A stretch of DNA of 64,000 bases. Source: Pseudomonadota bacterium. GTDB taxonomy: Bacteria; Pseudomonadota; Gammaproteobacteria; Burkholderiales; Thiobacillaceae. The position numbers and the translations under genes are program-made. The DNA lies in assembly GCA_021802945.1 (NCBI GenBank), contig JAJZRE010000002.1, positions 5,202 through 69,201 of the forward strand, written 5' to 3'. The notes under the pieces were generated by a model. The model had not been told where the DNA came from. It made no database searches and saw only the letters and a program-made list of their open reading frames with translations. Below, piece by piece: positions 15,681 through 36,669 of this stretch (position 1 is the first letter of the stretch; the number at the start of each line of letters is the position of its first letter).

Positions 15681-16082
15681 TCAATCCTGTTTTTTCTGGA
15701 AAGTCAGCGAGGCCGAGTTGATGCAGTAGCGCATGCCGGTGGGCGCGGGACCGTCGGGAAACACGTGGCCCAGGTGCGAGCCGCAGCGGCGGCACAGCGC
15801 CTCGACGCGCACCATGCCGTGGCTGCCGTCGGCTTTTTCCGCCACCGCGTCGGCGTTCAGCGGCTGGTAGAAGCTCGGCCAGCCGGTGCCCGAGTCGAAC
15901 TTGGTCGCCGACGAAAACAGCGGCTCGCCGCAGGCGGCGCACCGGTACTCGCCGTTCTCGTGATGGTCCCAGTATTGCCCGGTGAACGCCCGCTCCGTAC
16001 CGTGCTCGCGCAGGATGCGATATTGCTCGGGGCTGAGTTCGGCACGCCATTCGGCATCGGTTTTCGATTTGTCAAAGCTCAT
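15681..16082 (-). CDS. msrB: Peptide-methionine (R)-S-oxide reductase MsrB
   Basis: 133 residues. Repairs methionine-R-sulfoxide in proteins. Zinc ligands CAAC and CRRC, the substrate loop '[15 protein letters not shown]' and catalytic Cys in '[11 protein letters not shown]' are all present; '[11 protein letters not shown]' is conserved. No signal peptide, so cytoplasmic. First gene of a minus-strand set with the FNR-like reductase, and divergent from rubrerythrin. Confidence 0.95.
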
Positions 16083-16117: not shown

Positions 16118-16145
16118 TTGACAGCGTCATCGTAGCCGGTTTAAT
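16118..16145 (+). promoter_or_regulatory. Sigma70-type promoter for rubrerythrin
   Basis: TTGACA at 16118-16123, a 16-bp spacer and TTTAAT at 16140-16145, pointing toward the rubrerythrin gene. Predicted start near 16152 gives a leader of about 130 bases. A second weaker candidate has TATAAA at 16204-16209 without a good -35. Confidence 0.55.
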
Positions 16146-16158
16146 CTTCGTTCAGGTA

Positions 16159-16173
16159 TTAGACTTAGTCTAA
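16159..16173. promoter_or_regulatory. PerR/Fur-family-like 7-1-7 operator ahead of rubrerythrin
   Basis: TTAGACTTAGTCTAA is a perfect 7-1-7 inverted repeat lying just downstream of the predicted transcription start. The 7-1-7 architecture and TTA...TAA ends are those of Fur-family sites; some PerR boxes read TTAGAATnATTCTAA. Placement fits a repressor site. Regulator assignment is inference. Confidence 0.5.
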
Positions 16174-16284: not shown

Positions 16285-16704
16285 ATGCAACTCAAAGGTT
16301 CGAAAACCGAAGAACATCTGAAAGCCGCCTTCGCCGGCGAATCGCAGGCCAACCGCCGCTACCTCTACTTCGCAGCGAAGGCTGACGTGGAAGGCTACAA
16401 CGACGTGGCCGCCGTGTTCCGCTCCACCGCCGAAGGCGAGACCGGCCACGCGCACGGCCATCTGGAATACCTGGAAAAGTGCGGCGACCCCGCCACCGGC
16501 ATGGCGTTCGGTCCCACCGCCGACAACCTGAAGACCGCGATCGCGGGCGAAACCCACGAGTACACCGACATGTACCCGGGCATGGCCAAGGATGCGCGTT
16601 CCGAAGGCTTCGACGAGATCGCCGACTGGTTCGAGACCCTGGCCAAGGCCGAGCGCTCGCACGCCAACAAGTTCCAGAAGACCCTGGACACCCTGGGCGC
16701 GTAA
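16285..16704 (+). CDS. Rubrerythrin-like diiron protein without rubredoxin domain
   Basis: 139 residues from the ATG preceded by AAGGAGA; the upstream ORF extension has no support. A four-helix ferritin-like fold with diiron Glu/His motifs '[17 protein letters not shown]', '[14 protein letters not shown]' and '[12 protein letters not shown]'. The usual C-terminal rubredoxin [Fe(SCys)4] domain is absent, so electrons for peroxide reduction must come from another protein. The Fe-S oxidoreductase and DUF3501 genes follow on the same strand, a trio often seen together. Confidence 0.92.
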
Positions 16705-16719: not shown

Positions 16720-16749
16720 AAGCGGGTCGGCTTCGGCCCGCTTTTTTTT
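16720..16749 (+). terminator. Rho-independent terminator after rubrerythrin
   Basis: GC-rich hairpin (AGCGGGTCGG-CTTC-GGCCCGCT, with one G-T pair) followed by eight T. It lies 16 bases after the rubrerythrin stop and should separate part of the rubrerythrin transcripts from the Fe-S gene 42 bases further on. Confidence 0.85.
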
Positions 16750-16790: not shown

Positions 16791-18119
16791 ATGAGCACAC
16801 GCGAAGGCAACCTCGACGCCCCGACCCGTCACCCGCTCGACTGGAAAAACCCCGATTTCTTCGACGAGGACAAGCTCAACCACGAGCTTGAGCGCATTTT
16901 CGACATCTGCCACGGCTGCCGCCGCTGCGTGTCGCTGTGCACCGCGTTTCCCACCCTGTTCGACCTGGTGGACGAATCCTCGACGATGGAAGTGGACGGC
17001 GTCGCCAAGGCCGACTACTGGAAGGTGGTCGACGAGTGCTACCTGTGCGACCTCTGCTACATGACCAAATGCCCCTATGTGCCGCCGCATCCGTGGAACC
17101 TCGACTTTCCGCACACCATGCTGCGCGCCAAGGCGATCAAATTCAGGAAGGGCGGCACCACGTTTCGCGACAGGCTGCTTTCCAGCACCGACGCGATGGG
17201 CAAGCTCGCCTCGATTCCGGTGGTGGTGCAGGCCGTCAACGCCAGCCTGAAGAACAAGCCGATCCGCAAGCTGGTCGACAGCGTGCTGCACATCCACCCC
17301 GACCGCCAGCTGCCCGAATACGACAGCGCCAAATTCCGTTCCACCGCGAAGCCGCGCGGCGATTTCGCCGCGAAGGCCGGCGGGAGGACGCCCGGCAAGG
17401 TGGCGATCTACGCGACCTGCTACGTCAACTACAACGAGCCCGGCATCGGCCACGACCTGCTGAAGCTCCTGGCGCACAACGAGATTCCCGCCGTTCTGGT
17501 GGAGAAGGAAGCCTGCTGCGGCATGCCCAAGCTGGAATTGGGCGATCTCGATGCCGTGGCCAAACTGAAGGAAGCCAATATCCCGCATCTGGCGAAGCTT
17601 GCCCGCGACGGCTATGCGATCCTCACCGCGGTGCCCTCGTGCACCCTGATGTACAAGCAGGAACTGCCGCTGATGTTCCCGCACGATGCCGACGTGCAGG
17701 CGGTGAAGGAGGCGATGTGGGATCCGTTCGAATACCTGATGGCGCGCAACGTCGACGGCCTGCTGAAGACCGACTTCAAAAGCCCGCTCGGCAAGGTGGC
17801 CTACCACGTGCCGTGCCACCAGCGCGTGCAGAACATCGGCAACAAGACGCGCGATGCGCTGCAGCTCGCCGGCGCCATGGTGACCCTGGTCGAGCGCTGC
17901 TCCGGCCACGACGGCACCTGGGGCGTGAAGCGCGAATACTTCGACAAGTCGATGAAGATCGGCAAGCCGGTGTTCCGCCAGATGGCCGAGCCTGCGCCCG
18001 ATTATGTCAGTTCCGACTGCGCGATCGCCGCGCGTCACATCCTGCAGGGCATGGGCGAGTCCACCGCGCAGAAGCAGCATCCGATCACGCTGCTGCGCAT
18101 CGCCTATGGCCTCGAATGA
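16791..18119 (+). CDS. Heterodisulfide reductase-related Fe-S oxidoreductase (GlpC/HdrD-like)
   Basis: 442 residues. Two ferredoxin-like motifs near the N-terminus ('CHGCRRCVSLC' and 'CYLCDLCYMTKCP') should hold [4Fe-4S] clusters; two cysteine-rich CCG-type domains follow ('EKEACCGMPKLELG' and 'PDYVSSDCAIAARHI'). No membrane helix. Likely an electron-transfer subunit; its position after a rubrerythrin lacking rubredoxin makes it a candidate donor (inference). It is often paired with the DUF3501 gene that follows. Confidence 0.88.
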   Translation: MSTREGNLDAPTRHPLDWKNPDFFDEDKLNHELERIFDICHGCRRCVSLCTAFPTLFDLVDESSTMEVDGVAKADYWKVVDECYLCDLCYMTKCPYVPPHPWNLDFPHTMLRAKAIKFRKGGTTFRDRLLSSTDAMGKLASIPVVVQAVNASLKNKPIRKLVDSVLHIHPDRQLPEYDSAKFRSTAKPRGDFAAKAGGRTPGKVAIYATCYVNYNEPGIGHDLLKLLAHNEIPAVLVEKEACCGMPKLELGDLDAVAKLKEANIPHLAKLARDGYAILTAVPSCTLMYKQELPLMFPHDADVQAVKEAMWDPFEYLMARNVDGLLKTDFKSPLGKVAYHVPCHQRVQNIGNKTRDALQLAGAMVTLVERCSGHDGTWGVKREYFDKSMKIGKPVFRQMAEPAPDYVSSDCAIAARHILQGMGESTAQKQHPITLLRIAYGLE

Positions 18120-18143
18120 ATCAACGCTTGCAAGGAGAAAAAC

Positions 18144-18728
18144 ATGCCGCACATCACCCGTGACAGCCTGATGAGTCTGGAAAGCTACGCCAAGGTTCGC
18201 CCGGCCATGCGCGCCGAGATCATGGCGCACAAGAAGAACCGCATGGTCGAGCTGGGCGACCACGTCACGCTGATCTTCGAGGACGAGAAGACCATGCGCT
18301 ACCAGATCCAGGAGATGCTGCGCGCCGAGCGCACCTTCGAGGAGGCCGGCATCCAGGACGAGTTGGACGCCTACAACCCGCTGGTTCCGGACGGCAGCAA
18401 CTGGAAGGCCACCATGATGATCCAGTATTCCGACCCGGACGAGCGCAAGGTGGCGCTGGCGAAGCTGAAGGGGATCGAGGACCGCGTGTGGGTCCAGGTG
18501 GCCGACCAGCCGAAAGTGTTCGCCATCGCCGACGAGGATCTGGAGCGCGAGAACGAGGAGAAGACCTCGTCGGTGCATTTCCTGCGGTTCGAGCTCGATC
18601 CCACCTCGATTGCGGCGGCCAAGGGCGGCAGTCCGATCCGCATGGGCATTGACCTCGATGCCTACCGGGTGGAGTCGATGACGCTGGCCGACACGACGCG
18701 CGCTGCGCTGGTGGTCGATTTGGCCTAA
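18144..18728 (+). CDS. DUF3501 family protein
   Basis: 194 residues, soluble. Conserved features of DUF3501: 'RAEIMAHKKNRMVELGDHVT', 'FEDEKTMRYQIQEMLRAER' and 'DELDAYNPLVPDG'. Function unknown; regularly found next to rubrerythrin and the GlpC-like Fe-S protein, as here. Ribosome site AAGGAG lies before the ATG at 18144. Confidence 0.88.
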   Translation: MPHITRDSLMSLESYAKVRPAMRAEIMAHKKNRMVELGDHVTLIFEDEKTMRYQIQEMLRAERTFEEAGIQDELDAYNPLVPDGSNWKATMMIQYSDPDERKVALAKLKGIEDRVWVQVADQPKVFAIADEDLERENEEKTSSVHFLRFELDPTSIAAAKGGSPIRMGIDLDAYRVESMTLADTTRAALVVDLA

Positions 18729-24725: not shown

Positions 24726-25582
24726 TCCGCCGGGTCGCTTTCTGGCTGTGCCTGCTATTCGCCTTGCCGGCGCAGGCGGCCGCCATTCGCCTCATCGACG
24801 ACGTCGGTGACGTTCTCGAATTGCCCCAGCCGCAGCGCATCATCGCGCTGGCGCCGCATCTCACCGAATTGTTGTTTGCCGCGGGTGCCGGGGCGCAGGT
24901 GGTGGGCGTGGATGGCGCCAGCGATTATCCGGAGGCGGCGCAGGCGCTGCCGCGCGTCGGCGACTTCAGCCGCATCAATTTCGAGCGCATCCTGGCGCTG
25001 AAACCCGATCTGATCGTTGTCTGGGTGGGCGGCAACCGGGCGGCGGACATCCATCGCCTGAGACAAATGGGCATTCCCGTGTTGCAGACCGAGGCCACCC
25101 GGCTCGACGACGTGGCGCGCCTGTTGCGCCTGATCGGGCGGGCGAGCGGCCACGCCAAGGAAGCGGAGCGGGCGGCCCGGGATTTTTCCGCGCGGCTGGC
25201 CGCGCTGCAGGTTCGCCCCGGCCGGAAACCGCCGGTGCGCGTGTTCTATCAGGTGTGGGACCGTCCGCTGATGACGGTGGGCGGCACGCACTGGATCAGC
25301 GATGCGCTGGCGCTATGCGGCGCACGCAACGTGTTTGCCGACCTGCACGCACTGTCCCCGGTGGTGTCGCGCGAAGCGGTGCTGCAGCGTGCGCCGGACC
25401 TGATCGTGAGCGGCAGCGACGCACCCGACATGCGCCGAGCGTGGCAGCCTTTTTCAAGCCTTCCGGCAGTAAGAAACCAGGCGTTTGTGCGGGTGGATGC
25501 GGACCGCCTGCATCGTCTCACGCCGCGTCTGATCGAGGGCGTGGCCGAACTGTGCGCGGCGGTTGAGCCTTACACGCGGTGA
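24722..25582 (+). CDS. btuF: Cobalamin ABC transporter substrate-binding protein, BtuF-like
   Basis: 286 residues, GTG start. Signal peptide ('[16 protein letters not shown]') and a two-lobed binding fold: '[19 protein letters not shown]', '[20 protein letters not shown]', '[12 protein letters not shown]' and '[20 protein letters not shown]'. These match BtuF rather than siderophore-binding proteins. No BtuC/BtuD genes are adjacent, so the permease must be elsewhere. The 3' end overlaps the convergent fur gene by 13 bases. Confidence 0.82.
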
Positions 25583-26019
25583 CGCGGGTCGCTGGGCTTG
25601 CGGTTGGGACAGTTTTCCTTGATGCAGTCGGCGTAGATCTGCAGCGAATGGTCGTGGATGGCGAATCCGCGTTCCTTGGCGATCCGGTTCTGGCGCTTTT
25701 CGATTTCGCTGTCGAAGAACTCCTCGACCTTGCCGCATTGCAGGCAGACCAGATGGTCGTGATGGTCGCCCTGGTTGAGCTCGAACACGGCCTTGTCGCT
25801 GTCGAAGTGGTGGCGGATCAACAGTCCGGCCTGCTCGAACTGGGTCAGCACGCGGTAGACGGTGGCCAGCCCGATATCCTGGCCTTCGTCGGAGAGCAGG
25901 CGATACACCTCCTCGGCCGTCATGTGGCGCTTGTCGCTCTGCTCGAACAGATCGAGGATTTTCAGGCGCGGCAGCGTGGCTTTGAGACCGATGCTCTTGA
26001 GATCGGATGGATTGCTCAA
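25570..26019 (-). CDS. fur: Ferric uptake regulator Fur
   Basis: 149 residues. Winged-helix DNA-binding domain ('[20 protein letters not shown]', '[19 protein letters not shown]') and metal-sensing dimer domain with '[17 protein letters not shown]' and a second Cys pair in 'YADCIKENC'. The start is TTG at 26019 with GGAG upstream. Divergent from bamE, the arrangement known for fur/omlA. Likely the housekeeping Fur rather than PerR, judged from neighbours and '[13 protein letters not shown]'. Confidence 0.94.
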
Positions 26020-34710: not shown

Positions 34711-34740
34711 TTTAGAATGAGTCTAAACGCAATGCGTTTA
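34711..34740. promoter_or_regulatory. Two overlapping inverted repeats ahead of ftsH
   Basis: TTTAGAATGAGTCTAAA (34711-34727) is an 8-1-8 inverted repeat with one mismatch and differs from the rubrerythrin operator core at only two of 15 positions. Overlapping it, TAAACGCAATGCGTTTA (34724-34740) is a perfect 8-1-8 repeat. TAGAAT inside the first could be the -10. No heat-shock sigma32 promoter is apparent. Confidence 0.5.

Positions 34741-34776: not shown

Positions 34777-36669
<1,893 letters not shown>

Follow-up and report, generated by a model that had tools for sequence, protein, structure and literature searches.

A conserved operator in front of the rubrerythrin gene follows a second Fur-family regulator in Betaproteobacteria

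Comparative data confirm that the palindrome upstream of the rubrerythrin gene (rbr) in a 64-kb stretch of betaproteobacterial DNA, hereafter the window, is a real, conserved operator and a predicted switch site. Judged across many genomes, this operator tracks a second, little-noticed Fur-family regulator throughout the Betaproteobacteria. The closest named relatives of the source genome, a draft of 2.55 Mb and 88% completeness that was searched by pattern, are Thiobacillus. We consider it probable that the operator is read by the second Fur-family protein, an autoregulated repressor that would release rbr and a small set of peroxide and manganese genes on oxidation of its metal site. The site, its conservation, its occurrence together with the regulator, the ligand residues and the geometry of the promoter are direct observations; binding, repression and the peroxide signal are what we infer for this protein. 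The features under discussion are listed in Table 1.

Table 1. Features of the window, with the regulator gene found elsewhere in the draft genome
Feature	Position	Strand	Basis
-35 hexamer TTGACA, rbr promoter	16118..16123	+	read from sequence
-10 hexamer TTTAAT, rbr promoter	16140..16145	+	read from sequence
Operator TTAGACTTAGTCTAA (consensus TTAGAnTnAnTCTAA), downstream of -10	16159..16173	+	sequence and comparative data
rbr, rubrerythrin, 139 aa, constant target	16285..16704	+	Pfam PF02915, E 1.4e-29
msrB, divergent from rbr	15681..16082	-	SelR PF01641
fur, ordinary Fur	25570..26019	-	NF006999 183.6 bits, cut-off 146
Second operator TTAGAATGAGTCTAA, before ftsH	34712..34726	+	pattern search; kept before ftsH in three genera
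ftsH, putative target	34777..36669	+	translation; orthologues behind site by tblastn
Second Fur-family regulator gene, 139 aa	C11:14480-14899		found in genome search

The arrangement proposed in the original prediction is present in full. The two promoter hexamers are 16 bases apart and a further 13 bases separate TTTAAT from TTAGACTTAGTCTAA, which is a perfect 7-1-7 inverted repeat. The operator probably lies over the transcription start and its position, directly behind the -10, would fit the blocking of RNA polymerase by a bound protein. Of 72 rbr operator rows, a set in which several genomes are counted twice, 59 have TTGACA or a one-mismatch form of it starting 40-41 nt ahead of the operator, and in other genera hexamers resembling TATACT or TATATT take the place of the -10. 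A consensus promoter scan of the window did not list the rbr promoter, because it requires the second base of the -10 hexamer to be A, which is not so in TTTAAT. The arms TTAGA and TCTAA were fixed by the search pattern; T7, A9 and G10 prevail among the inner bases. In one genome (G185, L205) the operator of the rbr promoter is doubled: TTAGAACCGGTCTAA lies over the -10 and TTAGAGTCAGTCTAA follows it. Downstream of rbr, genes for a CCG-domain Fe-S protein and a DUF3501 protein occupy positions 16791-18728 of the window. A GC-rich hairpin followed by a T run, at about 16722-16747, was noted by eye between rbr and this pair; the scan did not list the hairpin.

The distribution of the site carries the main argument. 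Of 41 genomes of the family, 29 have the regulator, and TTAGANTNANTCTAA (consensus TTAGAnTnAnTCTAA) was found in 24 of these; the 12 genomes that lack the regulator gave no match. A reversed control pattern occurs once. At the level of the order (200 genomes) the corresponding counts are 39 of 68 against six of 132. Fisher p values, which ignore kinship, are 7.8e-7 for the family and 6.8e-17 for the order, and the pattern recurs in many families. The site stands in front of rbr at 20 of the 30 order-level loci that were read. TTAGA-N5-TCTAA has the same position upstream of rbr in all family genomes that have the regulator and an rbr promoter that was read, and also recovers the site in most of the remaining order-level genomes with the regulator. 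Exceptions, with the rbr operator present and no regulator found, are one family genome (G037, 71% complete) and five from the order (G084, G123, G133, G161 and G198), all six being drafts, three of them more than 90% complete. Most of the exceptions have sister genomes with the regulator, and gaps in the draft assemblies are perhaps responsible.

What kind of protein is the second regulator? A search for another Fur-family gene, which the original prediction had suggested, located it on a different contig. The protein is devoid of cysteine and hence of a haem regulatory motif. The best curated models are IrrA (118.9 bits), Irr (113.1 bits) and Leptospira PerRA (91.6 bits); the first two scores do not reach the curated thresholds, 150 and 170 respectively, and the protein falls below the cut-off of every Irr and PerR model. 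Of solved structures, Leptospira PerR 5nl9 is the nearest both by sequence and by fold. The fold comparison used the AlphaFold model of a 98%-identical Thiobacillus relative (pLDDT 79, pTM 0.65), a prediction of moderate quality that suffices for judging the fold but not the metal site.

An alignment of 52 betaproteobacterial regulator rows with 15 Fur rows separates the two groups. H37, N61, D85, H91, H93 and D104 (B. subtilis PerR numbers) are kept in all 52 regulator rows, giving the complete set of PerR regulatory metal ligands (H37, D85, H91, H93 and D104, the last being Asp rather than Glu). The recognition-helix Asn (N61/N63), likewise invariant in the regulator, is Arg in all 15 Fur rows, and the C96/C99 structural-zinc CxxC pair is absent from all 52. 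At the diagnostic positions the Fur rows read R, E, E and C in every case. The fur gene of the window encodes the recognition-helix Arg, the Glu ligands and the CxxC pair that define Fur and are missing from the second regulator; it is an ordinary Fur, as had been supposed, and not a likely reader of the rbr operator. In 45 of the 52 regulator rows a His-His-His run is located where the haem ligands of Irr would be, and the residues of the HHH or HYH found in the regulator are metal ligands as well. Three genomes without the second regulator (G001, G038 and G187; L362-L364) have another Fur paralogue that retains CxxC, perhaps a Zur.

In a phylogenetic tree the regulator clusters with Irr and PerRA at a support of 99/97 and is separate from both Gram-positive PerR and Fur, with the qualification that PerRA forms a long branch whose exact place is unsure. 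By descent, on this evidence, it is a member of the Irr/PerRA branch and not a Gram-positive PerR. The idea of a PerR-like control of rbr is thus upheld as regards predicted function and refined as regards ancestry. Asn61 and Asp104 have been termed canonical PerR residues (PMC8638851) but Irr also has these residues and has no CxxC (PMC8638967), so that they do not separate peroxide sensing from iron or haem sensing.

The genome-wide motif scan envisaged in the original prediction gave further sites both in this organism and in its relatives. Neither of the sequence outcomes named there as refuting, a lack of other sites before stress genes and a lack of a second Fur-family gene, was observed. 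Within one mismatch of TTAGACTNAGTCTAA the draft genome offers only three places, in front of rbr, ftsH and folE2, the last being TTATACTCAGTCTAA on the coding strand (C52:19994). A three-mismatch copy, TTAGACAAAGTCCAG, is 13 bases upstream of the second Fur-family gene. The remaining one-mismatch sites (C38, C60, C62 and C73) lie in or beside unrelated frames, look like chance and were discarded. In addition a related site, TTAGACCTTGTCTGA (C14:24209; L006:1501-1515), is directly before a gene for a LysM-domain protein that diverges from an apparent def-fmt pair, and a counterpart, TTAGACTTGGTCTAA, occupies the same place in another genome (G033, L110:1501-1515); the LysM-domain gene is a possible further target. 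The gene msrB, which shares its intergenic region with rbr in the genus Thiobacillus and two sister genera, is a possible second target of the rbr operator.

Nearly all family genomes with the regulator have a weaker operator in front of the regulator gene. By eye, this operator contains TAGACA, 17 nt from TATCAT or TAGAAT, which is how a -35 would stand, suggesting that the operator overlaps the regulator's own -35. In the ftsH and folE2 sites the odd arm contains TAGAAT or TATACT, possible -10 hexamers; for ftsH it is TAGAAT inside TTAGAATGAGTCTAA that could act in this way. With promoter hexamers inside the odd arms and inside the regulator site, departures from perfect symmetry would fall just where a hexamer is needed.

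In other genomes sites were read before mntH (G012 and G020), a 2-Cys peroxiredoxin gene (G015) and more distant peroxiredoxin genes (G082 and G126), trxB (G101, G129 and G182), oxyR (G005), a ferritin-like gene (G054, L231) and a gene for an RpoS-like sigma factor (G077). The rbr, peroxiredoxin, ftsH and folE2 homologues were named by tblastn and oxyR by NCBIfam; other names come from reading the translations. As expected of PerR, 7-1-7 operators thus precede the peroxide-defence genes rbr, peroxiredoxin, trxB, mntH and oxyR, a set of targets that favours a peroxide and manganese response over control of haem or iron. Among the sites read, in a search with one consensus, none precedes a gene of haem synthesis or iron uptake and the ferritin-like gene is the single case of iron storage.

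The rbr promoter also offers a comparison with OxyR. An OxyR-type box (ATAG-N7-CTAT-N7-ATAG-N7-CTAT with at most three mismatches) was sought in rbr upstream stretches of the order-level genomes and found in 19 of 45 stretches without the regulator against one of 35 with it; shuffled sequences almost never reach even four mismatches. Exact TTAGA-N5-TCTAA shows the opposite bias, with 22 of the 35 against five of the 45. The 35 stretches include all genomes that lack the exact twelve-base rbr site, so the selection works against this contrast. Where the regulator is missing, rbr often carries an OxyR-type box instead. One genome (G119; L317 and L318) has two rbr genes, the first with an OxyR-type half box and the other with a PerR/Irr-type site in which bases are changed. 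Genera of the family without the regulator share one kind of OxyR (65-76% to P0004), in some cases close to rbr. Thiobacillus possesses a different OxyR in which both redox cysteines are present, and we therefore rejected the idea that the second regulator is there because OxyR is lacking. With OxyR not missing in Thiobacillus, its rbr promoter would simply be under another master.

The mechanism that we favour is as follows. With its Fe/Mn site filled, a dimer of the second regulator would bind TTAGAnTnAnTCTAA behind the rbr -10 and block transcription. Peroxide would oxidize the metal site, by the histidine oxidation that is known PerR chemistry, and the protein would then leave the DNA. Rubrerythrin would be made together with the products of a small peroxide and manganese regulon, comprising ftsH, folE2 and possibly msrB in this organism and peroxiredoxin, trxB, mntH and oxyR in relatives, whilst the regulator would repress itself through the weaker site overlapping its own -35.

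Could the same regulator and operator respond to iron or haem, as does alphaproteobacterial Irr? The protein would then repress in iron shortage and let go when iron or haem is plentiful, leaving rubrerythrin to handle iron together with peroxide. The best curated models, the tree and the histidine run at the Irr haem-ligand place all lean this way, and in Bradyrhizobium Irr controls rubrerythrin-like and bacterioferritin genes (PMC3413700). The genes that follow the sites read argue otherwise, being concerned with peroxide, thiols and manganese and not with haem synthesis or iron uptake, as does the lack of a haem regulatory motif, and we regard an iron or haem signal as unlikely. That the ordinary Fur binds the palindrome and represses rbr with iron is very improbable, despite the use of 7-1-7 sites by Fur-family proteins and the presence of fur in the same window. 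The sites follow the second regulator and not Fur, which also occurs in genomes that lack them. As a half-site TTAGACT is unlike the TGATAAT of Fur, and the recognition helices differ in the Arg/Asn position described above; no Fur box with three or fewer mismatches is present in the 64-kb window.

We give scarcely any credence to the proposal that the site belongs to msrB, with rbr a bystander. The shared intergenic region and the role of MsrB in repairing oxidized methionine speak for it, but the operator holds its position upstream of rbr in genera and families in which msrB is not a neighbour. Nor does symmetry by itself count as evidence for the operator, and we rejected it as such: perfect 7-N-7 palindromes number 13 in the window and average 9.5 in shuffled sequence, so that symmetry alone proves nothing and a chance palindrome would be unremarkable. 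TTAGA-N5-TCTAA, however, occurs twice in the window (rbr and ftsH) and not once in 100 shuffles. Sequence and spacing are kept over dozens of genera, the site is absent where the regulator is absent and the reversed-pattern control is near zero. The probability of chance is negligible, and the comparative data already refute it. Part of the palindrome, GACTnAGTC, resembles part of an IscR half-site; an IscR-type site was set aside because occurrence of the site follows the Fur paralogue.

Returning to the peroxide-responsive repressor, OxyR in Proteobacteria, PerR in Gram-positives and Irr in Alphaproteobacteria is the usual division of labour. Zinc-free proteins of the Irr/PerRA branch have so far been described for Alphaproteobacteria, as Irr, and for spirochaetes. 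Our search, which was limited to the open-access literature, found no description of this betaproteobacterial regulator, although annotation pipelines may already label it a Fur-family or PerR-like repressor. The results suggest that peroxide defence in these Betaproteobacteria is under a PerR/Irr-like repressor in addition to OxyR. A broader proposal, plausible but put forward tentatively, is that a zinc-free peroxide sensor of the Irr/PerRA branch belongs to the standard peroxide defence of roughly one third of the sampled genomes of the order, that it swaps with OxyR at the rbr promoter in evolution and that it stands above oxyR in some lineages. The Betaproteobacteria would thereby gain a widespread, predicted repressor of the Irr/PerRA type whose regulon is PerR-like, whose operator is clean and whose promoter design is fixed, and a single regulator is proposed for rubrerythrin, ftsH, folE2, peroxiredoxin, trxB and mntH. 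Cultivable relatives such as Thiobacillus or Sideroxydans allow two questions to be put: do Irr-branch proteins that have neither structural zinc nor a haem motif respond to peroxide or to iron, and by what route does control of a promoter shift from OxyR to a Fur-family repressor?

The system combines attributes of several that are known. Leptospira PerRA (LIMLP_10155, PDB 5nl9), the closest solved relative, has the same five metal ligands, Asn and Asp, and also lacks the structural-zinc C96/C99 pair (PMC8638851); the site in the promoter of its own gene has been reported as similar to Irr boxes (PMC8638967). It differs in sharing only about 30% identity, in being a spirochaete protein and in its known regulon. 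Irr and IrrA provide the best family models, join the regulator in the tree, lack CxxC and have the Asp and Asn; the Irr box, TTTAGAA-n3-TTCTAAA, is similar to the operator here. Identity is 32-38%, however, the regulator lacks the haem regulatory motif and its predicted targets are peroxide and manganese genes. Irr is moreover stated to be limited to Alphaproteobacteria (PMC8638967), and PerR- and Irr-type regulators have been predicted for Acidithiobacillus (PMC2631029, PMC2621215). PerR of Bacillus and Staphylococcus shares the regulatory ligands, the Asn and Asp, a 15-bp 7-1-7 box (TTATAATnATTATAA; PMC545781) and peroxide-defence targets, but has a Zn(Cys)4 site, occupies a separate branch of the tree and recognizes a box with different inner arm bases. 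The PerR regulons predicted in Deltaproteobacteria include rbr and ahpC, with other palindromes, such as AATAGGAATCGTTCCTGTT, and with perR mostly adjoining its targets (PMC545781). In other Betaproteobacteria, where the regulator is missing, OxyR-type control would act on the same target gene through its own four-part box in place of the palindrome.
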